A stretch of 53,435 bases of DNA from Lysobacterales bacterium (GTDB lineage: Bacteria > Pseudomonadota > Gammaproteobacteria > Xanthomonadales > Xanthomonadaceae), in assembly GCA_017302035.1 (NCBI GenBank), contig JAFLEA010000015.1, forward strand, positions 1-53,435, in the 5' to 3' direction. Position numbers and translations under genes: made by a program. Below, piece by piece: positions 1 to 11,792 of this stretch. Every line of letters begins with the position of its first letter. The stretch's first letter is position 1. The notes beneath the pieces are model-generated. The model ran no database searches. It had not been told where the DNA came from and saw only the letters and a list, made by a program, of their open reading frames with translations.

Positions 1-3000
1 GACCAGGCCAGGTCGGGCGCGTCGCCGTTGCCCTGGTCGAAGACCAGCATTTCATAGCCGTCGCCGGTCTGCGGCGGGTCAGACACGTATGGGATGGCGT
101 TGCCCACGTCGCCGTTGCGGTCGTTCCAGATGCGCACGCCGTTGGTGGACCAGTCTTTGCCCGGCGCGAGGGTGGTGATGAAATAATCGCCGCGGCCGTC
201 CACATCCAGGTCCAGTTCTACACCGTAGTTGCCGTACAATCCGTCACCGCGCGGCCCAGCCAGGCTGATGGTGACGTACATCCACTGGCGGTCCTGCGAG
301 AGCAAGGCGCGGGTGATGTCCACGTCGGGATAGTAGATATTCATCTCGCCGCCGTTGAAGGGGCGCTCGAAGAGGTTGAGGTCATACTGGTCGCCGCCAA
401 CGGCGCGCAACTCGCTGGCTACCACCGACGAGTTGTCGTCCTCGGCAAAACTCTCGGGCGAACTTGGCACATTGGACGGCTGTTTGAGCGGGGTTGTCGC
501 CTGGCTGGACGGGGTTTCGACCGGCACGCCAGAGTCGGTGGGGCAGGCCGCATTCAGGTACTGGCGGCACTCATCCTCGGAAAATTCGCGCGTGGTGCGC
601 TGGTTGGCGAGCTTGATCAATTCCTCCAGGCCGAAGACGTAGGCGCGCACAGAGCCGTCGCGCCCGGCGCTGTACAGGTATTTTCCGTTTGGACTGACAG
701 CCGCTTCGTAGATGCGGTCGGTATGGCCGTAGGTCTGGAGTTCGACGGTGCGGTCTTCGAGGTTCCACAGCACGCCGATGCCGTCGGCGCCGCCGGTGTA
801 GAGGAATTTGCCGTCGGCGCTGAAGGCCAGGCCAAAGAGGGTGTCTCCCCGCCCGCGAATGGGCGCCTGCGACTGGCCCCAGCGCGACGGGTCCATGTCC
901 CACAGGATGACGCTGCCGTCGTCGCCGCCGGAGGCCAGCAATTTTCCGCTCGGGTCGAAGGCCACCACCTGGACGATGTCGGTGTGGCCGGTCAGCGCGG
1001 CGAGTTGGCTGCCGCTCTTTGTGTCCCACAGGATGATGACCTGGTCATAGTAGCCGACGGCCAGGATGGAGCCGTCTGGATTGTAGTCGAGCGAGAAGGC
1101 CGCGCCCCAGGTGGACGGAAGTTCGAACACGGGGTCGCCGTTTTCGGCATCCCAGATCGTGACCGTGCCTGTTTCGCCGCCGCTGGCTACGTTTTTGCCG
1201 TCCGGGCTGTAGGCCACGGTTTGCAGCGGACCGCCGTCCCCGCCGAGTTTGAACAGTTCCTTCGCGCTGGCGGTGTCCCAGATGCGGGTGGTGCCGTCCT
1301 GGCCGGCCGTGGCGATGCGCTGGCCGTCCGGGCGGAAGGAGACGCTGTTGACGATGCCCTGGTGCCCGCCTAGTGTGTTGAGCAGGCGGCCGGAGGTCGT
1401 GTTCCACAGGCGTACGAGCCCGTCGCCGCCCGCGCTGGCCAGTTGCGCGCCGTCCGCGCTGACAGCGATGTCGTACACGCTGGCGCGGTTGTCGAAGGTC
1501 AGCCATTCGCGGCTGCCCTCCGGCGAGACGTTCCAGATGCGCACGGTCTTGTCCTTGCTGGAGGTGGCGATGCGCTTGCCATCGCGGCTGATGGCCAGGC
1601 CGTAGACCTGGTCTTTGTGGCCCACCAACACCATGCCCGGGCGGCCGTAGGTCGTGTCCCAGAAGCGCACGGTGCGGTCGGCGCTGACGGAGATCAGGGT
1701 CGAACCGTCGCGGCTGTAGGCCAGGCTGTAGACCCAGTCGCGGTGGCCGGTGATGGTCAGGGCTTTGGGGGTGCCCGGCTGCGAGATATTCCACAGGATG
1801 ATGGAACGGTCTTCTCCGCCGGCGGTGGCGAGTTGTTTGCCGTCGGGGCTGAAGGCCACGCTGTTGACGTAGCCGCTGTGGCCCTGCAGGCGGTAGAGCG
1901 GGCGGTAGGTGTTGGCGTCCCAGACGATGGCCAGCGAGTCGGCGCCGGCCGTCGCAAGGCGCGTGCCGTCCGGGCTGTAGGTCACCGCCTGGATGTCGCC
2001 CGTGTGGCCGTTGAGCGGCTGCACGAACACATCGTCGGCCAGGGTCCACACCACCAGGGCGCCGCCTTCGCCGCCGCTGACGAGATGGGTGTTATCGGGG
2101 CTGAAGGCCAGCCCCCAGATGACGCCCTCCTGCACGGGCTGCGATTTGACTTCGGTCCAGCCGCTGGTCTCGTAGAGTACGATGCGGCCCTCGCCGGTGG
2201 CGGCGGCCAGCAGTTTGCCGTCTGGGCTGAAGGCCACGGAGGTGACGCCGTAGCCGTCGGCTGGCGGGGTGAGCAGGGCCAGGTTGGCGACCAGCCGCCC
2301 GGTGACGGTGTCCCAGACCTTGAGCACGCCGTCGTTGCCGGCTGTGGCGAGGCGTTGTCCGCTTGGGCTGAAGGCCGAGCCCCAGACCGTGCCATTATGG
2401 GTGAGCGAATCTGCGCCCGAGATGGCCGTATCGCGCAGGACGTGTTCGACGCGCATGGCGGGCAGGGCCTGTCGCAAGGCGTCTTCCACCTGCTGGATGG
2501 CGCTGCGCATTTCGGCCTGTTGCAAGTCCACGTTTTGGGTGGCCTGCAGAGCCAGACGGATGCTGAGTTCGGGGTCGATGCCCAGGTTGCTGACAGATTG
2601 GGCCGCCAGTTCGCGCAGGTGGGCGATCTGTTCCTTTTGGGAGGCCAGCGCGGTCTGCTGTTCGGCCAGGGCCTGCTGCTGGTTGGCGCGCTCGGTCTGC
2701 TGGTTGGCGCGTTCGGCCTCGGCCAGGGCGCGCTGTTCCTGCTCGGTGGCGCGTTTCGTCTCCTGCTGGGCCTGGTAGAAGAAGAACAATGCCGCCAGGG
2801 CCAGTACGGTCATCAGCACCGCCGCCCAGCGGATGAGGCGGTTGGTGCGTTGTTCGCGCATGGCGTTTTGATATTCCTGCTTGCAGGCGTCCAGGAAATC
2901 CTGTTCGGCGGGCAGCAGTTCCTCGGCATGCCCCCTGGCCCATTCGTCGGCCTCAAGGTAGGCCTTGCCGCGCAGCAGCAGAGAATCGGGGCGGCTCTGA

Positions 3001-3105
3001 TTGTTCCACAGGTCGGCCTGGCGCTGGAAGACGCTCAGGTTTTCGAGGAACCAGGCGGCGTTGTTGCGGCGGATGGGGCGGGTCAGGCGGTCGTGGGCCA
3101 GTTCG
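1..3105 (-). other. WD40-repeat beta-propeller portion with membrane helix and coiled coil (probably from another organism)
   Basis: The part of the frame downstream of the ProB homology reads, in order: a STAND-NTPase-type linker, a transmembrane helix (IRWAAVLMTVLALAALFFFY), a Glu/Gln-rich coiled coil made of AEAERANQQ-like units, and then more than a dozen WD40 repeats of the pattern VAFSPDGKxLAxAGxDGxVxLWD. A non-repeat C-terminal region contains ELDLDVDGRGDYF and DRNGDVGN. No stop occurs before base 1. Large proteins of this shape (NTPase, membrane helix, WD40) are common in Chloroflexota and cyanobacteria. Third codon positions look less GC-biased than in the genes to the right. The N-terminal NTPase expected of such proteins is absent here, replaced by ProB. 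Function is not predictable beyond a protein-interaction scaffold. Confidence 0.8.
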
Positions 3106-3866
3106 CGCAGCACCTCGGCGCGGCGGCCGTTGAACAGCACGGTGTCGATGCCGGCCGCGCCGGCCTTGGCCGCGGCTTCGAGCTTGGTGCGCATGCCGCC
3201 GGTGCCGGCGGCGCTGCCGCTGCCGCCGGCCATGGCGAATATCGCCGGGGTCAGCTCCGGCACTTCGGCCAGCAGCCGCGCGTCCGGGTTGCTGCGCGGG
3301 TCGGCGTCGTACAGGCCGTCGACGTCGCTGGCGATGAACAGCACGTCGGCATCGATCAGCGCAGCGACGATCGCGGCGAGGTTGTCGTTGTCGCCGAGCT
3401 TGAGCTCGTCCACCGAGACGGTGTCGTTCTCGTTGACCACCGGCAGTGCGCCCAGGGCCAGCAGTTCGTCCAGGGTGGCGCGCGCGTTGAGGTAGCGGCG
3501 GCGGTTGCGCAGGTCGTCGTGGGTCAGCAGCACCTGTGCGACCGGGCGCTCGAAGAAGCGTTGCCACAGCCCGATCAGTTGCGCCTGGCCGAGCGCGGCC
3601 AGGGCCTGGCGCGCGGCCATCGCCGCCCCGGCCTGTCCGGCCCGGGGCAGGATCGCGCGCCCGGCGGCGACCGCGCCGGACGACACGATGACGACCTCGC
3701 GCCCGGCCGCCAGGCTGGCCGAAACGAACTGGGCCAGGCCGAGGGCGAAGCGCGGCGACAGGCCGCCGCCGTCGGCGGCGAGCAGGTTGCTGCCGACCTT
3801 GAGTACCGCGCGCCGCCATGGCGGCAGGGCGTGCAGGTGGGCGGCGCTGGCCGATTCGCTGCTCAT
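1..3866 (-). CDS. proB: Glutamate 5-kinase N-terminal domain fused in frame to a WD40-repeat protein (probable chimera; open at left edge)
   Basis: One uninterrupted frame runs from ATG at 3866 off the left edge. Residues 1 to about 262 are the amino-acid-kinase domain of glutamate 5-kinase, the first step of proline synthesis: KVGSNLLA near residue 23, VIVSSGAVAAGR, the VNENDTVS substrate loop, LGDNDNLAAIVA, ASDVDGLYDADPR and GTGGMRTKLEAAAKAG. After ELAHDRLT (3081-3104) the homology changes abruptly. The PUA domain and normal C-terminus of ProB are missing, and a linker typical of STAND/WD40 proteins begins (RPIRRNNAAWF, then LLLRGKAYLEADEWA). The start lies 16 nt after argH, as expected for proB at the end of this cluster; proA would normally follow. 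The kinase half is surely proB. That the whole frame is one real gene is doubtful. Confidence 0.75.
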   Translation of the reverse strand, partial: MSSESASAAHLHALPPWRRAVLKVGSNLLAADGGGLSPRFALGLAQFVSASLAAGREVVIVSSGAVAAGRAILPRAGQAGAAMAARQALAALGQAQLIGLWQRFFERPVAQVLLTHDDLRNRRRYLNARATLDELLALGALPVVNENDTVSVDELKLGDNDNLAAIVAALIDADVLFIASDVDGLYDADPRSNPDARLLAEVPELTPAIFAMAGGSGSAAGTGGMRTKLEAAAKAGAAGIDTVLFNGRRAEVLRELAHDRLTRPIRRNNAAWFLENLSVFQRQADLWNNQSRPDSLLLRGKAYLEADEWARGHAEELLPAEQDFLDACKQEYQNAMREQRTNRLIRWAAVLMTVLALAALFFFYQAQQETKRATEQEQRALAEAERANQQTERANQQQALAEQQTALASQKEQIAHLRELAAQSVSNLGIDPELSIRLALQATQNVDLQQAEMRSAIQQVEDALRQALPAMRVEHVLRDTAISGADSLTHNGTVWGSAFSPSGQRLATAGNDGVLKVWDTVTGRLVANLALLTPPADGYGVTSVAFSPDGKLLAAATGEGRIVLYETSGWTEVKSQPVQEGVIWGLAFSPDNTHLVSGGEGGALVVWTLADDVFVQPLNGHTGDIQAVTYSPDGTRLATAGADSLAIVWDANTYRPLYRLQGHSGYVNSVAFSPDGKQLATAGGEDRSIILWNISQPGTPKALTITGHRDWVYSLAYSRDGSTLISVSADRTVRFWDTTYGRPGMVLVGHKDQVYGLAISRDGKRIATSSKDKTVRIWNVSPEGSREWLTFDNRASVYDIAVSADGAQLASAGGDGLVRLWNTTSGRLLNTLGGHQGIVNSVSFRPDGQRIATAGQDGTTRIWDTASAKELFKLGGDGGPLQTVAYSPDGKNVASGGETGTVTIWDAENGDPVFELPSTWGAAFSLDYNPDGSILAVGYYDQVIILWDTKSGSQLAALTGHTDIVQVVAFDPSGKLLASGGDDGSVILWDMDPSRWGQSQAPIRGRGDTLFGLAFSADGKFLYTGGADGIGVLWNLEDRTVELQTYGHTDRIYEAAVSPNGKYLYSAGRDGSVRAYVFGLEELIKLANQRTTREFSEDECRQYLNAACPTDSGVPVETPSSQATTPLKQPSNVPSSPESFAEDDNSSVVASELRAVGGDQYDLNLFERPFNGGEMNIYYPDVDITRALLSQDRQWMYVTISLAGPRGDGLYGNYGVELDLDVDGRGDYFITTLAPGKDWSTNGVRIWNDRNGDVGNAIPYVSDPPQTGDGYEMLVFDQGNGDAPDLAW
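3081..3105 (-). other. Junction between ProB and WD40 homology (short shared sequence)
   Basis: The bases encode ELAHDRLT. The phrase fits the last helix of the ProB kinase domain (VLRELAxDRL) and also the conserved AHDRL-RPIR-NNAAWF motif of WD40-bearing STAND proteins. Homology is purely ProB on the right and purely WD40-type on the left. A shared stretch of about 24 bases at the switch point is what a k-mer assembler leaves when it joins two genomes. Confidence 0.65.
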
Positions 3867-3882
3867 GCGCGGGAATGGCCGC

Positions 3883-5178
3883 TCATGCCAGCCGGTCCCA
3901 GCGCGCCTGCAGCTCGTCCAGGCGCAGGTCGGCGGCCGCGCCCGGCGAGGTGCGCGCGGCCAGGCTGCCTTCCGGGGTGCGGCCCTGCCCGGCCGAGTCG
4001 GCCGCAGCCGCGGCAGCCTTGTAGGCCTCGCGGAACGGCACCCCGGCCAACGCGGCCTCCACCGCCACGTCGGTGGCGTACATGCCCGAGTCGATCGCCG
4101 CGCGCAGGCGGTCCTGGCGCCATTCCAGGTTGGCCAGCAGCGCCGGCAGCAGCTCCAGCGCCGCCAGCCCGCGGCCGAAGCCATGGAAGATCGCGCCCTT
4201 GGACGCCTGCAGGTCGCGGTGGTAGCCGGAAGGCAGCGACAGCAGGTGTTCGATCTCGGTGCGCGCGGCGGCAACGCTGGCGTGGGTGGCGCGCATCAGC
4301 TCGATCACGTCCGGATTGCGCTTGTTGGGCATGATCGAACTGCCGGTGGTGTACTGCGCCGGCAGGGCGACGAAGCCGAACTCGGCACTGGTGAACAGCG
4401 ACAGGTCCCAGGCGATCCGGCGCAGGTCCAGGGTCGCGCTGCCGAGCGCCTCCAGCGCGGCCAGTTCGAACTTGCCACGCGAGAGCTGTGCGTAGACCGG
4501 CGAGACCTGCATGCGCCCGAAGCCGAGCGCCGCGGTGGTGTGCCCGCGGTCCAGCTGCAGGTTGACGCCGTAGCCGGCGGCGGTGCCGAGCGGATTGGCG
4601 TCGACCAGGGCCAGGGTATCGGCGGCGCGGGTCGCGTCGTCGATGAAGGCTTCGGCCCAGCCGGCCCACCACATGCCCGCCGAGGACACCACGGCACGCT
4701 GGATATGGGTATATCCGGGCAGCGGCAGCGCGGCTTCGGCGCGGGCGCGGTCCAGCGCCACCCCGGCGATCGCGCGCGCGAGCTGCGCGGTGCGCGCCAG
4801 CTTTTCCTTCAGCCACAGTCGGGTGGCGACCAGGACCTGGTCGTTGCGGCTGCGGCCGGTGTGGATCTTGCGGCCGGCGTCGCCCAGGCGCTCGGTCAGG
4901 CGCGCCTCGATCGCCGAATGGCCGTCCTCGTAGCGCTCGTCCAGGACGAAGGTGCCGGAATGGAAGTCGTCGGCCAGGATCGCCAGTTCGCGCCGCAGCC
5001 CGTCCAACTCGCCCTGCGAAAGGATGCCGATGCGCTGCAGGCCCTCGGCGTGCGCGCCGCTGGCGGCGATGTCGTGCAGGAAGAACTCGCGGTCCAGGAC
5101 CACGTCGTCGCCGGCGAGGAAGCGCTGGATCTGCGCGTCCACCGCCACGCCGGGCTTTTGCCACAGGAGGTCAACCAT
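3883..5178 (-). CDS. argH: Argininosuccinate lyase
   Basis: Cytosolic lyase of the fumarase/aspartase superfamily that splits argininosuccinate into arginine and fumarate, the last step of arginine synthesis. The 431-residue length is close to the family norm. Visible motifs are [19 protein letters not shown] and the superfamily signature [12 protein letters not shown] at about residues 279-290, which carries the catalytic Ser loop. The start ATG at 5178 overlaps the end of argC by 8 nt, implying translational coupling. The stop is followed 16 nt later by proB. Nothing looks broken. Confidence 0.97.
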
Positions 5179-6145
5179 TGCCTTGTCCCCTTTCCACCGG
5201 GATCGACGCCAGTTCGTCGAAACCCAGGGCGATGTTGATGTTCTGCATGGCCTGGGTCGCCGCGCCCTTGAGCAGGTTGTCCTCGGTGGCCACCACCACC
5301 AGGCGCTTGCCGCCCGGGGCCACGGCGAAGCCGCCGATCTCCACCCCGTGGCGACCGGCGATGCGGCTCACCCACGGTGCTTCCTCGACCACCTCCACCA
5401 GCGGCTCGCCGGCATAGCGCTGCCGGTAGCGCGCCCGCACCCAATCCGCGGTCACCGGCTCGCGCAGCCACAGGTTGGCGGTCAGGGTGATGCCGCGGAA
5501 ATGCGGGGCCACGTGCGGCATGAACTCCACCGGCACCTGCAGCCGGGTGGACACCTCGCGCTCGTGCAGGTGGCCGACCAGCGAATATGGCATCAGGTTG
5601 TCGCGCAGCAGCTCGACGTTGTTCTTGTCCGAGGGCGCGGTGCCGGCGCCGGAGTAGCCGGACACGCCGAAGCACTGCGGCGGCCCGGCGAGGTACTCGA
5701 GCATCGGCCAGATCGCCAGTTGCATCGCGGTGGCGTAGCAGCCCGGGTTGCTGATCCGCTTCTGCCCGGCGTAGCGGCCGCGGGTGATCTCCGGCAGGCC
5801 GTAGTACCAGCCCGGATCGAAGCGGTAGTCGGCCGACAGGTCCACCAACAGGGTGTCGGGCCTGGCCGCGTCGATCGCCTCGACGTAGGGCGCGGCCTTG
5901 CCGTTGGGCAGGGCCAGCACCACAACCTCGGCGCCGCGCGCGGCCACCGCCGCCGGATCCAGGTTCTCGTAGCGCAGTTCGCCACGGTAGGCATCGCTGT
6001 GTTCGGCCACGCGCTGGCCGGCCAGCTCGCGCGAGGACACGAACGCCAGTTCCAGGTGCGGATGCGCGGCGACCAGCCGGATCAATTCCGCGCCGGTATG
6101 CCCGCGCGCGCCGACGATGCCGATGCTGCGTCTTGCGGTGTTCAT
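5171..6145 (-). CDS. argC: N-acetyl-gamma-glutamyl-phosphate reductase
   Basis: NADPH-dependent reductase converting N-acetylglutamyl phosphate to N-acetylglutamate semialdehyde, the third step of arginine synthesis. The N-terminal Rossmann motif is [13 protein letters not shown] (about residues 9-21). The catalytic Cys is in SNPGCYATA (Cys136), and a GHLHEREVS segment follows. I place the start at ATG 6145, giving 324 residues. A longer frame upstream only adds a non-conserved tail that lies inside the preceding acetyltransferase gene. The ATG shares an ATGA with the stop of that gene, and the end overlaps argH, so the three are tightly coupled. Confidence 0.96.
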
Positions 6146-6744
6146 GGATGCGAGTCCAGCTTGAACTGCAGGTGGCGCCTGGCCGCGGGCCATTCGCCGT
6201 CGATCAGGGAAAACACCACGGTGTCGCGCAGCGAGCCGTCGGCGTGGCGCTTGTGGTTGCGCAGCACGCCATCCTGCTTCGCCCCCAGGCGGGCGATCGC
6301 GGTGCGCGAGGCATGGTTGAACCAGCTGGTCTCGAAGAACACCGAGGCGCAGCCCAGGGCCTCGAACGCGTGCTCCAGCAGCAGCAGCTTGGTCTCGGTG
6401 TTCAGGCCCGTGCGCTGGACCCGCGGCGCGTACCAGGTGTAGCCGATCTTGAGCGTCGGCACGGCCGGGTCCAGGTCGTAGAAGCGCGTGCTGCCCACCA
6501 CCTGCCCGTCCGGATCGAGCACGGCGAACGGCAGGGCCCGTCCCATCGCCTGCTCCCTGAGCGCCTTGTCGATGTAGCGATCGACCGCGTCGGGCGCCGG
6601 CACGTTGGTGTACCAGGCCTCGTGCAGGCCGCTGCTGCGCGCCAGCTCGGCCAGTGCCGGCCCGTGCGCGGCCTCCAGCGGCACCAGCACGACCCGGTGC
6701 CCACCCAGCGTCGGCACCACGTTCCAGGGAGAAGTCACACCCAT
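6142..6744 (-). CDS. GNAT-family N-acetyltransferase inside the arginine cluster
   Basis: A 200-residue protein of the RimJ/RimL-like GNAT type. It has an N-terminal [12 protein letters not shown] strand, a central region with [11 protein letters not shown] and [29 protein letters not shown] (acetyl-CoA site), and a C-terminal [20 protein letters not shown] segment. The ATG at 6744 is preferred over an upstream frame that runs into argA/B. It sits 10 nt behind argA/B and overlaps argC by ATGA, so it is an integral operon member. The substrate is unknown. A role in acetyl-group transfer for arginine synthesis is possible, but acetylglutamate synthesis is already covered by the fused argA/B gene. 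Confidence 0.85.
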
Positions 6745-6754
6745 GCCTTGGTCC

Positions 6755-8086
6755 TCAGCCGACCAGGGTCGGCTGGCGGGTGGCGCAGTGCGCCACGCAG
6801 CGGCCGATCCGGTCCAGGCCCTCGATGCCGTACCAGAACACTTTCCACTTCTCCTGCTTGATGCAGCCATCGGATTCGGCGTAATAGAAGATGTTGACCG
6901 GGTTGTTGTGGCGCGAGCGCCAGTACAGCGCCGGCGTCTCCTCGCGCATCACGTTCCACACCGCTCGGCCCAGGCCCTCGCCCTGGGCGTCGTCGAGCAC
7001 CGCGAACTTGTCCAGGTACACGCCCTCGGGCGTATCCACCAGGATCACCGCGGCGCGGTAGTTCTCGCTGACGTAGGCGCGCAGCAGCGGGGTGCGTTCG
7101 AAGTAGTCCGGGACCAGGTCGCGGCCGAAGCTGGATTCGATCAGGGACTTGAGCGCGGCCAGGTCCAGCTCGCCCCAGGCAGTGGCGCGCTGCACCTTCT
7201 CGCCGCGCCGCACCAGGGTGCCCGAGCCCTTGTGGGTGAACAGTTCCTTGGCCAGGTCCGCCGGCCGGGTGATCGACACCGAAGAAGTCAGCGGCAGCCG
7301 GTCGAGCAGTTCCTTGATCTGCTGGATCTTCACCCGCATCCCGCCGTTGATCCACGGCTGCTGCATCAGGTGCTCGAACTCGGTGGACAGGTTGATCGAA
7401 TCGATCACCCGGCCCTGCTCGTCGAGCAGGCCGCCGGTGCCGGTGAGGAAGATGATCTTGTACGGCTGCAGCACCTGCACCAGTTCGTTGGCGGCGAAGT
7501 CGGCGTTGACGTTGAGGATCTGCCCGCCGGCGGTCTCGCCCAGGCTGGCGATCACCGGGATCGAACCGGCCTGCAGGCTGGCCTCGATCGGTGCCAGGTT
7601 CACCGATTTCACCTCGCCGACCAGGCCATAGGTGTCGCGGTCCAGGTACTCGGCCTCGAGCACGCCGCCGGTGATCGAGGTGGCGCGCGCACCGCCGGCC
7701 TGCAGCGCCTCGACCAGGCGCAGGTTGGAGGCCTGGAACACCTTGCGCACGATCGCCAGCGCCTGCGGCGTGGTCACCCGCAGGCCATTGACGGTCTGCT
7801 TCTCGATCCCGGCCGCGGCCAGTTCCTGGTCCAGCTGCGGGCCGGCGCCGTGGATCACGATCGGGGTCAGGCCCACTTCCTGCAGGAAGGCCAGCGAGGA
7901 GGTCAGCGCTTCCAGGTCGTCGCGCAACACCGCGCCGCCGACCTTGACCACGGCGAAACGCTTGGCGTCCAGCTGCGAGAAGCGCTTGAGGTACTGGCTG
8001 ATCTCCTTCGCGCTGGCCATGCTCGAAAGCAGGCGCACGATGGTCTGGCGGGTTTGGGTCTGGGTCTGGGTGGCGGGAACGTTCAC
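6755..8086 (-). CDS. argB: Bifunctional N-acetylglutamate synthase/N-acetylglutamate kinase
   Basis: A 443-residue fused enzyme doing the first two steps of arginine synthesis: acetylation of glutamate from acetyl-CoA, then phosphorylation. The amino-acid-kinase domain spans about residues 25-290 ([57 protein letters not shown]). A C-terminal vertebrate-type NAT domain follows to the end ([49 protein letters not shown]). This architecture is known from Xanthomonas and Xylella and resembles mitochondrial NAGS. The start is GTG at 8086. A short tandem repeat near the start codes QTQTQT, just after a non-conserved leader. argE ends 48 nt upstream. Confidence 0.95.
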
Positions 8087-8134
8087 TTGGCTCGGGTCTG
8101 CAGAATACGGTCGTGGAAGGAAGGCGCGATCCGG

Positions 8135-9250
8135 TCAGGACGCGCCATTGATGATCCGGTTCACCGACTCGGCGTAACCGCGCAGCTGCGCCAGGGTCAC
8201 GAACTCGTCGGCGGTATGCGCCTGGGCGATGTCGCCCGGGCCATAGACCAGCGCGGTGTAGCCTCCGGCCGAGAACAGCGAAGCCTCGGTCCAGAAATCC
8301 ACCGCGTTGCCGACCGGCAGCCCCAGCGCGTCGGCGACGTCGCGCGCGGCCAGGCGGCGCTCCTCCGCGCGCGCGCCGCCCTGGTCAAAAGCAGCCCCGG
8401 AAGGCAGGCCGGGCCCGCGGAAAGTCTCCTCGAAGCGCGCGGCCGCCGGTTCGGCGCAGTCGGCGAACTGGGTCAGCAGCGCATCCACGTCCATCGACGG
8501 CAGCGGCCGGAAGCCGAAGCGCAGCTCGGCCTCGGGCGCGATCATGTTGGCCTTGATCCCGCCCTCGATCCGGCCGATGTTGAAGCGCAGCCCGGTCAGG
8601 CCGCCGAAGCGCGCGTGCGCCAGCGACTGCACGTGGTCCAGCGCGCGGCCGCCCCAGCGTACCGCCTGGTGCAGCGCGCTGGCCGCGGCGTCCTGGTGGC
8701 CGGAGGCGTGCCCGGCCCGGCCCTGGAAGCGCACCAGCACCGAGGAGATGCCGCGGTGCGCCAGCACCGCCTCGCCCATCGTCGGCTCGGCCACCAGCAC
8801 CGCCGCGTAGGGAATGCCGCGGGCCAGGAACGCAGCCACGCCGCGTGGATCGTTGGCTTCCTCGTCGCTGGTGAACAGGAAGGCGGCATCGCCGTCGCCG
8901 GCATTGGCCGCGGCCAGCAACGCCGCCGCCGCGCCCTTGATGTCGCACACGCCCAGGCCGACCACCCGGTCGTCGAGGCGGCGCATCGCGTGCGGGTCGG
9001 CGCTCCAGTGCGGCGAATCCGGGACCGTGTCCAGGTGCACGTTGAACAGGTACTTCGGCGCGCCGCGCACCGCATACAGGCTGACCGCGCCTGCGCCGTG
9101 GTCGACCACTTCCACTTCGAACCCGGGCAGGTTCGCGGCCAGGTAGCCGAAGATCCCGCCTTCGGCGGCGATCGCGCGCGGCGGATTGCGGGTGTCGAAC
9201 GACACCAGCTTCTCCAGGTACGCCAGGGTGGATTCGAGCAGGGCGGTCAT
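8135..9250 (-). CDS. argE: N-acetyl-L-citrulline/N-acetylornithine deacetylase (M20 family)
   Basis: Zinc-dependent M20/ArgE-family deacetylase of 371 residues. Metal and catalytic residues appear in FNVHLDTVP (His72, Asp74), GLGVCDIKG (Asp103) and FTSDEEAND (Glu130, Glu131). A dimerisation domain follows with GRAGHASGHQDAA, and the C-terminal metal His is in AQAHTADEFV. In Xanthomonas the homologue acts on N-acetylcitrulline, and that specificity is inferred here from the adjacent acetylornithine carbamoyltransferase. It starts 10 nt after argG and belongs to the same operon. Confidence 0.94.
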   Translation of the reverse strand: MTALLESTLAYLEKLVSFDTRNPPRAIAAEGGIFGYLAANLPGFEVEVVDHGAGAVSLYAVRGAPKYLFNVHLDTVPDSPHWSADPHAMRRLDDRVVGLGVCDIKGAAAALLAAANAGDGDAAFLFTSDEEANDPRGVAAFLARGIPYAAVLVAEPTMGEAVLAHRGISSVLVRFQGRAGHASGHQDAAASALHQAVRWGGRALDHVQSLAHARFGGLTGLRFNIGRIEGGIKANMIAPEAELRFGFRPLPSMDVDALLTQFADCAEPAAARFEETFRGPGLPSGAAFDQGGARAEERRLAARDVADALGLPVGNAVDFWTEASLFSAGGYTALVYGPGDIAQAHTADEFVTLAQLRGYAESVNRIINGAS

Positions 9251-9260
9251 CGGTGCGGAC

Positions 9261-10466
9261 TCAGCGGTTCACTTCGGCCCACAGGGTGCTGCTCATGCCG
9301 AACAGCTTGATGAAGCCCTCGGCCTCCTCCACGCCCCAGTCGGCCGACTGCGCGTAGGTGGCGCCCTTGGCGTTGAGGATGTGCGGCGAACGGACCGCCA
9401 CCGCGTCGACGCGGCCGCCGCGGGTTTCCAGCACCACCTCGCCGTTGACCTGCGCCTGCGAGGAGGCCAGGAACGCCTCCAGGTCGGTCTTCAGAGGGTC
9501 GTGGTAGAAGCCCTCGTACACCAGCTCCACCCACTTGCGCGCCACTTCGGGCTTGAAGCGGTTCTGCTGCTTGCTCAGCACCGCCTCCTCCAGCGCCCGG
9601 TGCGCGGCCAGCAGCGCGGTGATGCCCGGCGCCTCGAACACGATCCGGCCCTTCAGCCCGATCACGGTGTCGCCGGTGTACATGCCGCGGCCCACGCCGT
9701 ACTGGGCGAACATGGTGTTGAGCCTGGCCAGGATCTTCGCCCCGTCCAGCGGCTTGCCGTCCAGTTCCACCGCCTCGCCCTGCACGAACCTCAGGGTCAC
9801 CATCAGCGGCTCGGTCGGCCAGGCGCCGCGCGGCGCGCACCAGCCGCGCGCGCCCTCGCCCGGTGCCTCCCACGCATCGATCTCGCCGCCGGACATGGTC
9901 ACGCCCAGCAGGTTCTCGTTGATGGTGTAGTTCTTCTGCTTGGCCCGGACCTCGAAGCCGCGCTCCTCCAGGTACTTCTGCTCGTAGGCGCGGGTCTGGG
10001 TGTGCTGCTTCTGGATCTCGCGGATCGGGGCGACGATGCGGTAGTCGCCCTGCGACTTCACCGCCAGGTCGAAGCGCACCTGGTCGTTGCCCATGCCGGT
10101 GCAACCGTGCGCGATCGCGTTGGTGCCCAGGTCGGCCGCGCGCGCCAGCGCCGCGTCCACGATCAGGTAGCGGTCGGAGACCAGCAGCGGGTACTGGCCC
10201 TGGTAGCCCTCGCCAGCCCACACGAACGGCTTGACGAAGCCGTCCCAGATCGCGCCGCCGCCATCGACGGTGACGTGGCTGGCCACGCCCAGCTCGGCGG
10301 CGCGCTGCTCGATCCAGGCGCGCTCCTCGGCGTCCACGCCGCCGGTGTCGGCGAACACTGTGTGCACGTTCCAGCCCTGCGCCTGCAGGTAGGGCACGCA
10401 GAAACTGGTATCCAGCCCGCCGGAGAAGGCCAGGACGATGTCGCGGGACGTATGGGGACTGCTCAT
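9261..10466 (-). CDS. argG: Argininosuccinate synthase
   Basis: ATP-dependent ligase joining citrulline and aspartate into argininosuccinate. The N-type ATP pyrophosphatase P-loop is at residues 13-21 (AFSGGLDTS), followed by [15 protein letters not shown] and [19 protein letters not shown] at 10466 gives 401 residues. The frame could be read 18 codons further upstream, but the extra residues are not family-like. The ribosome site is weak. It lies 84 nt behind argF', the largest gap inside the operon. I see no clear terminator or promoter in that gap. Confidence 0.95.
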
Positions 10467-10550
10467 CGGGGGGAGGTTCCGTGGAAATCGGGTTCGTGGG
10501 TGCAGCCGACCGTCAGTCAACTGCGCTTTCTGGGTATTCGTGCCGCGGCC

Positions 10551-11558
10551 TCAGGACACCAGCGCGGCCATCACCGCCTTCTGCACGTGCAGGCGGTTCT
10601 CGGCCTCCTCGATCGCGATGCAGCCGGGCGAATCCATCACCGCATCGCTGGCCTTGACGTTGCGGCGCAGCGGCAGGCAATGCGAGAACACGCCATGGTT
10701 GGTCAGGGCCATCTTCGCCTCGTCCACCATGAAATGCTTGTACTGGTCGCGGATGGGCTTTTCCGGCTCCCAGTTGCCGAAGTAAGGCAACGCGCCCCAG
10801 CTCTTGGCGTAGACCACGTCGGCGCCCGCATAGGCGCTTTCGATATCGTGGCTGACGGCCAGCGAGCCGCCGCTCTCGGCCACGTTCTGCGCCGCCCAGC
10901 CCATGTAGCGTTCGTCGAGCAGGTATTCCGGGGTCGGGCACAGCAGGGTCACGTCCATGCCCAGGCGGGTGGCAATCGTCAGCGCGGAGTTGGCCACGGC
11001 CGTGTTCAGCGGCTTCGGATGGTAGGTCCAGGTCAGCACGTACTTCTTGCCGCGCAGGTCGGAGCTGCCGAAGTGCTCCTGCAGCGCCAATGCATGGGCC
11101 AGCTCCTGGCACGGATGGGTGATCGTCTCCATGTTGATCACCGGCACCGTCGAGTACCTGGCGAAGGCCTTGAGCACGCGATCCTCGCGATCGTAGGCCC
11201 AGTCCTTGAACTTGGGGAACGCACGCACGCCGATCAGGTCCACGTAGCGGGCCAGTACCCGTGCCACCTCGGCGATGTGCTCTTCGGTGTCGCCGTCCAT
11301 CACGGTGCCCAGGTCGAATTCGATCGGCCACGCGTCCTTGCCCGGCTGCAGCACGATGGCGTGGCCGCCGAGCTGGAACGCACCCAGCTCGAAGCTGGTG
11401 CGGGTGCGCATGGACGGGTTGAAGAACACCAGCGCGATCGACTTGCCCTTGAGTTCGCCGCCCAGCTTGTTGCGCTTGAACAGCGCCGCCTGGGTCAGCA
11501 GCGCGTCCAGTTCCGGACGGCTCCAGTCCTGGGTGTTGAGGAAGTGCTTGATCGACAT
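10551..11558 (-). CDS. argF': N-acetyl-L-ornithine carbamoyltransferase
   Basis: Carbamoylates N-acetylornithine to N-acetylcitrulline, replacing ordinary OTCase in Xanthomonadaceae. The carbamoyl-phosphate loop is SMRTRTSFELG (residues 49-59), with HPCQELAHA at 148-156 and HCLPLRRNVKASDA near the end. Residue 92 is Glu, the residue reported to distinguish acetyl- from succinylornithine enzymes, which have Pro there. Lys302 (NVKASD) matches the carboxylated lysine described for the X. campestris enzyme. The SD-like AGGA lies 8 nt before ATG 11558. It is the first enzyme gene of the operon and sits 33 nt behind a hairpin plus U-tract (see attenuator entries). Confidence 0.97.
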   Translation of the reverse strand: MSIKHFLNTQDWSRPELDALLTQAALFKRNKLGGELKGKSIALVFFNPSMRTRTSFELGAFQLGGHAIVLQPGKDAWPIEFDLGTVMDGDTEEHIAEVARVLARYVDLIGVRAFPKFKDWAYDREDRVLKAFARYSTVPVINMETITHPCQELAHALALQEHFGSSDLRGKKYVLTWTYHPKPLNTAVANSALTIATRLGMDVTLLCPTPEYLLDERYMGWAAQNVAESGGSLAVSHDIESAYAGADVVYAKSWGALPYFGNWEPEKPIRDQYKHFMVDEAKMALTNHGVFSHCLPLRRNVKASDAVMDSPGCIAIEEAENRLHVQKAVMAALVS

Positions 11559-11591
11559 CGGCGGTTCCTGGCGGTAATGGTGCGCGAAAAC

Positions 11592-11620
11592 AAAAAAACC
11601 CAGCCGGGGCTGGGTTTTCA
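11592..11620 (-). terminator. Intrinsic terminator between the Arg leader frame and argF' (attenuator hairpin 3:4)
   Basis: On the minus strand the arms ACCCAGC (11615-11609) and GCTGGGT (11604-11598) enclose a CCCG loop. A-T pairs extend the stem, and seven consecutive U residues (11598-11592) start at its last base. This is a strong rho-independent terminator placed only 33 nt before the argF' start codon. A plain terminator for the upstream gene (stop 11793) could sit there too, but the unusual distance of about 175 nt from that stop and the competing upstream copy of GCTGGGT favour attenuation. Confidence 0.8.
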
Positions 11621-11639
11621 GAACGGACGGCAGGACGCC

Positions 11640-11670
11640 CCGGTCACCCAGCGGAATGGCGGGGTTCCGG
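11640..11670 (-). promoter_or_regulatory. Candidate pause/anti-antiterminator hairpin and antiterminator segment in the argF' leader
   Basis: On the minus-strand RNA, CCGG (11670-11667) can pair with CCGG (11643-11640), and ACCC (11665-11662) with GGGT (11649-11646). This makes an eight-base-pair stem with a small internal loop. The 3' side contains GCTGGGT (11652-11646), identical to the downstream arm of the terminator, so it can instead pair with ACCCAGC of the terminator's upstream arm. The structures exclude one another in the 1:2 / 2:3 / 3:4 manner of classical amino-acid attenuators. Energies were not computed. Confidence 0.55.
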
Positions 11671-11745
11671 TCGGCGCGCGCGCGAGGTCATCCCGGAGGC
11701 CATCCGGGCGGCGCTGGCGGCGTGTGGCTGCAGGTCGGCGTTCAT
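11644..11745 (-). CDS. Possible 33-residue arginine-containing leader peptide of the arg operon
   Basis: Short frame from ATG 11745 to TGA at 11646-11644. Arg codons stand at positions 14, 22, 24, 25 and 29; the segment SRARRPEPRH holds four of them directly before and inside the pause hairpin. The stop codon overlaps the antiterminator segment GCTGGGT. A ribosome finishing the peptide would mask that segment and allow termination, while one stalled at codons 22-25 would leave it free. There is no convincing ribosome site. A weak -10-like GACCAT (11760-11755) would put transcription almost at the ATG, so the message could be leaderless. In DNA this GC-rich Arg codons are common by chance, hence the moderate confidence. 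Confidence 0.45.
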   Translation of the reverse strand: MNADLQPHAASAARMASGMTSRARRPEPRHSAG

Positions 11746-11792
11746 GAGCTGGGAATGGTCGCATGCGCGCGCAGGTGGCGCAAGCAGGCCCG

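Follow-up and report, generated by a model that had tools for sequence, protein, structure and literature searches.

The window analysed here, meaning the whole stretch of 53,435 nucleotides, comes from a Lysobacterales bacterium (contig JAFLEA010000015.1 of assembly GCA_017302035.1). On its minus strand lies argF', named from the X. oryzae homologue beside Xoo5 and from its translation. Behind it, at 3883..10520 on the same strand, stand genes that form the presumed remainder of an arginine operon, their names likewise read from the translations. The features of the locus are as follows.

11755..11783, minus strand: probable sigma-70-type promoter (TTGCGC at 11783-11778, 17 nt, GACCAT at 11760-11755)
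11624..11747, minus strand: match to Rfam RF02242 (Xoo5) by cmscan, 117.2 bits, model positions 1-124 of 124
11644..11745, minus strand: leader ORF of 33 codons, MNADLQPHAASAARMASGMTSRARRPEPRHSAG followed by the stop, apparently leaderless, recognised from its reading frame and conservation
11671..11691, minus strand: invariant core ATG-ACC-TCG-CGC-GCG-CGC-CGA (MTSRARR), with the control Arg codons 22, 24 and 25
11640..11670, minus strand: putative protector stem, with a 5' arm CCGG behind Arg25 and a 3' arm CCGG behind the stop, enclosing GCTGGGT
11646..11652, minus strand: putative antiterminator GCTGGGT, overlapping the leader stop TGA (11646-11644)
11592..11618, minus strand: intrinsic terminator AAAACCCAGC-CCCG-GCTGGGTTTT-TTT, with arms ACCCAGC and GCTGGGT and seven T
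10551..11558, minus strand: argF', N-acetylornithine carbamoyltransferase, first gene of the operon
9261-10520, minus strand: argG
8135-9250, minus strand: argE'
6755-8086, minus strand: argB with an extra part
6142-6870, minus strand: GNAT-like ORF, overlapping
5171-6193, minus strand: argC
3883-5178, minus strand: argH

A preliminary description had proposed an arginine attenuator at this place, and the parts it named are all present. The 33-codon frame runs from 11745 to 11644 with Arg codons at 22, 24, 25 and 29, to which a fifth, CGG at codon 14, has to be added. The outer arms of the stem 11670-11640 are CCGG at 11670-11667 and CCGG at 11643-11640, GCTGGGT at 11652-11646 lies over the leader stop, and the terminator at 11618-11592 ends 33 nt before the argF' start at 11558.

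The argB-like ORF at 6755-8086 (443 aa) exceeds a plain N-acetylglutamate kinase in length, and from its translation the extra part is apparently an acetyltransferase. Very long frames are also found on the plus strand of the window, at 9186-11747 (853 aa), antisense to argG and argF', and at 1443-4334 (963 aa); both are probably the usual artefact in GC-rich coding DNA.

Conservation of the leader frame

Among 149 genomes of the window's family, 144 have a strong argF' match, and upstream DNA was taken from 142 of them. The remaining two were left out because of contig ends; in one (G135) the core lies 133 nt before argF', and in the other (G110) it lies on another contig. All 142 upstream regions carry the core ATG-ACN-TCN-CGN-GCN-CGN-CGN in frame. 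In the 994 codons of these cores, letters that depart from the majority number 0 at the first, 0 at the second and 125 at the third codon position, and from this codon-wise conservation we infer that the leader frame is translated. This count, like the others in this analysis, is one of related genomes and not of independent events. Genome-wide, the core pattern was found in 144 of the 149 genomes, and it is missing from exactly those five in which no strong argF' match was found; the reversed pattern, used as a control, matched in just one of 149. Four genomes have one additional core match each, presumably by chance. Two of the five genomes that lack both the leader and a strong argF' match, G007 and G114, are only 72 and 85% complete; in the other three, G049, G056 and G132 (92, 99 and 99%), the ability to make arginine may have been lost.

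In 160 genomes of the order, model R1 gave strong matches (>60 bits) in the window's family (f1) and in families f2, f3 and f12. MTSRARR is intact in all 20 regions from these three further families, and the argF' match starts shortly 3' of the core in each of the 20 fetched; G150 (f3) is a twenty-first. At least 12 R1 matches of only 31-40 bits also sit directly before argF', and we rejected the view of these weaker matches as noise because of these coordinates and of the other leaders found there. A scan with the core pattern yielded at least 119 stretches. In 73 of the 80 that were read, argF' lies behind the leader (in L227 by eye); among the other seven, three end with the fetched DNA and four are chance matches in unrelated bacteria.

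From families f4 to f11 and one f3 genome we read 40 upstream regions, a subset of those located. The scan found a terminator in 32 and none in eight (one in f5, four in f9 and three in f11); G193, one of the eight, has by eye a terminator-like hairpin beyond the loop limit of the scan. In f4 to f10 the MTSRARR core is missing, and 31 of the 36 regions read have a terminator. Every one of these 31 contains a frame with at least three Arg in seven codons, compared with 15% of shuffles, and 26 contain one with at least four, compared with 3.3% (dinucleotides preserved; shuffle figures computed with G150 included). The frames are the most Arg-rich ones near the terminator, picked alike in real and shuffled DNA, and their start codons are provisional. 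Examples are LRRRRRLSQRRAG, NPRRRRVLQSTAG and VVRRRRPLRQMELFG, each followed by a stop. The final codons of seven of the 31 frames are Ala-Gly-stop, which contain the antiterminator sequence; these peptides are otherwise unrelated. The preliminary description had worried that Arg codons are common at this GC content, a concern that the codon-wise invariance of the core and the shuffle controls in the other families answer. The Arg-run leader is likely ancestral and MTSRARR derived and frozen, a polarity taken from the distribution among families and not from a tree.

Terminator, antiterminator and ribosome position

A scan, run without shuffle control, found a hairpin resembling a terminator, followed by a run of T, in all 142 family regions, and one of its six inner pairs shows 11 double changes with zero broken cells across 52 genera. 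In 126 of the 142 relatives, all six positions of a segment at the leader stop are complementary to the 5' arm of the terminator. The best six-base complement between core and terminator is complete in 127 of 142, compared with about 6 in shuffled leaders, and the 6-mer of the terminator 3' arm is duplicated exactly upstream in 100 of 142, compared with 3.7 after shuffling; the shuffles for the antiterminator complement and for the helix scores preserve single-base content. Both the frame and the GCTGGGT duplicate of the preliminary description are therefore kept in relatives. The antiterminator:terminator pairing contains a C-A mismatch in 7 of 142. A recognisable GCTGGGT was not found in genus g46 (G046, G079, G106, G130) and in G034. 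These genomes retain the leader core and the terminator; other short complements may serve there, or control may have changed.

Covariation, for which the preliminary description proposed a test in the three stems, was found in the terminator. For the antiterminator:terminator pairing inside the family it is not significant, being equalled in 51 of 500 shuffles. Given this weak signal, we turned to a comparison between families. In f12, which probably includes Rhodanobacter and Dyella, GCCGGGT goes with ACCCGGC in 10 of 11 regions and GCTGGGT with ACCCAGC in the eleventh. In f8, where the pairs differ from GCTGGGT (for example, TCTTTGGCT with GGCCAAAGA), the helix score is 8.5 on the family's own terminators but 4.7 on those of other families. 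Antiterminator and terminator thus appear to have changed together in these two families. Own and swapped scores are nearly the same in f1 (6.54 and 6.51) and f7 (7.07 and 7.24) because the sequences are alike, and in f9 three of seven regions have a helix no better than shuffles. Two of the 20 regions from f2, f3 and f12 (L190 and L202) are absent from the helix scoring, as the scan found no terminator in them. Four Arg-run leaders of f8 (L341, L342, L343 and L345) end in ELFG or RIFG before the stop, with an antiterminator that complements the terminator loop and 5' arm and is unrelated to GCTGGGT.

The third stem is less constant. The fold of the window shows the protector stem, and helices of 3 to 10 pairs occur at the same places in relatives; they are variable and were counted without shuffle control. 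Among RNAalifold consensus pairs outside the terminator, none has a double change. Those placed inside the coding core we read as a result of codon conservation. Before the terminator 3' arm is made, the predicted probability of the antiterminator is 0.51 when no ribosome is present and 0.95 when one is placed at Arg25; it rises with the ribosome in 137 of 142 relatives and goes from 0.00 to 0.999 in the window. In the bare leader it already exceeds 0.5 in 74 of 142. When the upstream part was shuffled with dinucleotides preserved, the mean was 0.66, compared with 0.53 for the real sequences, which were lower in 70 of 131. These predictions suggest that the protector stem, with its modest effect relative to shuffles, is not a strong general feature, and masking by the moving ribosome may matter more. 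If the complete RNA is allowed to equilibrate, even with a ribosome placed at Arg25, the predicted terminator probability averages 0.84 and is 0.49 in the window. Since the terminator wins at equilibrium in most relatives, the antiterminator would have to win by forming first.

The spacing between the control codons and the antiterminator is nearly fixed. In the 131 regions with a clear GCTGGGT match (the other 11 of 142 were left out here and in the shuffling of the upstream part), the antiterminator starts 18-24 nt behind the first base of CGA, and in 110 of them exactly 21 nt behind it. If the ribosome edges are taken to be about 15 nt away from the P-site codon, the antiterminator stays free when CGA occupies the A site and is covered when the ribosome is at the stop codon, in 131 of 131 cases for both positions. 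Folding and geometry thus both predict the earlier proposal that stalling frees the antiterminator and finishing the peptide masks it.

We next consider where the leader RNA begins. The RF02242 match, well above the gathering threshold of 50 bits, starts at 11747, 2 nt 5' of the leader ATG, and the -10-like GACCAT ends 9 nt 5' of that ATG. Of 140 relatives whose leader start was assigned, 97 have a promoter pattern (TTG[CA]-N14-22-[GA][GC][CGA]AT, then 5-14 nt and the leader ATG), compared with a mean of 0.18 after shuffling that preserved single-base content. In assigning the starts, an ATG at 13-26 codons before the core was missing from two of the 142 regions, and in a third the DNA ahead of the core was too short. 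The distance from -10 to ATG is 8-10 nt in 81 of the 97 matching relatives. In X. oryzae PXO99, sRNA-Xoo5 was cloned as an RNA of 124 nt with a RACE-mapped 5' end, between PXO_00354 and PXO_00353 (PMC3039613). PXO_00353 encodes N-acetylornithine carbamoyltransferase (argF') and PXO_00352 argininosuccinate synthase, or argG (PMC3039613). Position 1 of the RF02242 model presumably corresponds to the RACE end of Xoo5, as the matching length of 124 indicates. With its 5' end only 2 nt from the AUG and the promoter spaced as described, the leader RNA is probably leaderless, which accounts for the lack of a visible ribosome site that the preliminary description counted as a weak point; the leader is probably translated from this leaderless RNA. 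The description had also raised a transcription start downstream of 11650 as fatal to its proposal; for the Xanthomonas homologue, the 5' end on record is upstream of the leader instead (PMC3039613).

Taken together, we consider it very probable that minus-strand positions 11747-11592, ahead of argF', form an arginine-sensing transcription attenuator of the Yanofsky type, read by the ribosome. Because relatives keep the arrangement of leader and terminator, the cell probably gauges its arginine by way of the ribosome and not with the customary repressor protein, and the signal sensed would most simply be charged tRNA-Arg. Transcription would start about 2 nt upstream of the leader AUG, and ribosomes would load onto the leaderless RNA and trail the polymerase. 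When Arg-tRNA is scarce, a ribosome would stall at CGC-GCG-CGC-CGA (codons 22-25) and cover the 5' arm of the protector, leaving GCUGGGU free to pair with ACCCAGC; the antiterminator so formed would block the terminator and allow transcription of the arg genes. When arginine is ample, the ribosome would reach the stop codon and cover GCUGGGU, and the terminator would end transcription. As far as sequences can tell, comparison establishes the translated frame, the terminator, the antiterminator complementarity, the geometry and the co-change between families; that stalling depends on arginine and changes read-through is what we infer from them.

Alternative readings of the leader

The attenuator interpretation of the preliminary description is supported, with the correction that conservation of the peptide reaches well past the Arg codons. 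A plain starvation attenuator would have no need of fixed Met, Thr, Ser and Ala residues in the core, and the residues flanking the core are as fixed as the Arg codons or nearly so (Ala-6 and Ala-3 in 142 of 142 upstream regions, Gly-1 in 140). In 140 of 142 leaders CGA encodes the third core Arg, although CGA accounts for just 5 of the 231 Arg codons in eight window genes, and Pro often comes next. CGG, by contrast, makes up 1 of 426 Arg codons in leader cores and 48 of 231 in the eight genes. CGC, CGT and CGA are read by one tRNA (ICG), and CGA may be decoded slowly. MTSRARR may also resemble +X+ arrest motifs, and TnaC and the fungal arginine attenuator peptide are examples of a peptide-induced ribosome pause tuned by a small molecule. 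The MTSRARR chain itself could pause the ribosome, tuned by arginine or another small molecule, a variant of the attenuator that we hold to be possible but doubtful; the two may hold together. Its conservation in 20 of 20 regions of three other families fits such a role. In sister families, however, the architecture is retained although the Arg-run peptides are quite different, which fits sensing of charged tRNA. We would only tentatively suggest that in the window's family and three related families an ancestral Arg-run attenuator became a sensor based on one specific nascent sequence, with MTSRARR, translated from a leaderless RNA in which CGA is almost obligatory, as an arrest peptide tuned by arginine or Arg-tRNA. 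If true, transcription in these genomes, which have no ArgR, would be governed by a bacterial arrest peptide for arginine.

Rfam types RF02242 as an sRNA, and in X. oryzae a short RNA was not only cloned and mapped but also seen on Northern blots, with bands of about 130 and about 100 nt and the short form alone late in growth (PMC3039613). The leader predicted here is 156 nt long (11747 to 11592), and the cloned 3' end of Xoo5 precedes the terminator. Judged by sequence match and position, the Xoo5 of Rfam and the leader of the window are the same RNA. In the available part of PMC3039613 it is described as a small RNA with no leader peptide or arginine link and no function is given, the words leader and arginine being absent from its main text; the paper notes in general, and not for Xoo5 specifically, that cloned 5'-UTR RNAs may attenuate transcription. 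At E 0.001 the RF02242 model has matches in only 108 of the 149 genomes of the family, and four weak matches (29-32 bits) lie away from argF' (G005 C73, G018 C7, G147 C15 and G026 C2). A stand-alone RNA acting in trans, upstream of argF' by chance, is very improbable and was rejected in its pure form: the leader precedes argF' in 142 of 142 regions and is missing from the five genomes that have no strong argF' match, its frame is conserved codon by codon, and an Arg-rich leader with a terminator precedes argF' across much of the order. The terminated leader could additionally act in trans.

A constitutive partial terminator behind a chance frame would suit the abundance of Arg codons and open frames at this GC content and the unremarkable folding energy of the leader (z-score -1.0, with 31 of 200 shuffles folding as well), but it is barely credible in view of the Arg-run leaders far above shuffles and the near absence of the reversed core, and we rejected it on the 0/0/125 codon-position pattern. 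A metabolite-binding riboswitch or a protein-binding leader for arginine, as a terminator-bearing 5' leader ahead of a biosynthetic operon in genomes without ArgR might suggest, is just as hard to credit and was rejected, since the five Rfam matches up to E 5 include no riboswitch family and conservation tracks codons and not an aptamer, with no double change in consensus pairs outside the terminator.

Arginine control across the order

The repressor ArgR is the usual explanation for the control of arginine synthesis in gammaproteobacteria. We found no ArgR (PF01316) in any of the 149 family genomes, that of the window included, while 9 of 14 control genomes were positive, and ArgR control of the window's arg operon was rejected on this ground. 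With ArgR absent, the attenuation proposed here is probably the main transcriptional control of arginine synthesis in the window's family. In the order sample of 160 genomes, ArgR occurs only in eight, all of f11, a family with a distant argF (40-45% identity) and no terminator before argF in the three regions read. Repressor and attenuator thus look like alternatives. In G158, G175 and G212 of f11 (L357-L359) the ArgR gene lies about 1-2 kb from the distant argF (for example, G158 C17 19701 and 21061).

The attenuators hisL and trpL of enterobacteria have a leader peptide with codons for the end product, and the position of the ribosome decides the outcome. The arrangement proposed here shares with them these codons, a putative protector stem, the antiterminator, the terminator and the switch by ribosome position, and differs in the amino acid (arginine), the apparently leaderless RNA, the peptide core fixed beyond the control codons and the genomes without ArgR. 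In the fungal arginine attenuator peptide (CPA1/arg-2), a short upstream frame in an arginine gene uses the ribosome as sensor, as it does here; that system is eukaryotic and translational and works by arginine-induced arrest, and no sequence likeness is claimed. The peTrpL frame of Sinorhizobium starts leaderless, as apparently the leader here does. It is likewise an attenuator leader peptide, but for tryptophan and with another peptide and other structures (PMC7298713). The frame uORFC-8-2 before cysS in Rhodobacterales is, like ours, a conserved small frame with control codons from which ribosome-mediated attenuation was proposed by comparison, but it concerns cysteine, a tRNA synthetase gene and other bacteria (PMC8632094).

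As to novelty, which the preliminary description had suggested, no arginine attenuator was found described for these bacteria in the titles and abstract openings of the openly licensed literature; the RNA itself, however, was already known as sRNA Xoo5. The available part of PMC8632094 mentions a carA motif in betaproteobacteria and contains no arginine attenuator like that of the window, arginine and argF are absent from the main text of an attenuator survey (PMC2965389), and two papers on Xanthomonas sRNAs (PMC7694677, PMC3771888) make no mention of Xoo5 or arginine. In its available part, a study of regulons treats arginine control through ArgR (PMC5343134), which in gammaproteobacteria acts on the same pathway as a DNA-binding repressor. 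The type of mechanism is classical; the novelty lies in arginine as the amino acid, in the absence of ArgR and in a peptide that is frozen.

Our findings thus suggest that a large group of bacteria, including Xanthomonas, Stenotrophomonas and Lysobacter, has no ArgR gene and seemingly controls its arginine operon through the ribosome. They recast the Rfam sRNA Xoo5 as a cis-regulator with a testable signal, and they offer an order-wide natural series in which Arg-run leaders stand against one frozen peptide, raising the question of why MTSRARR is unchangeable while sister families manage with RRRR.
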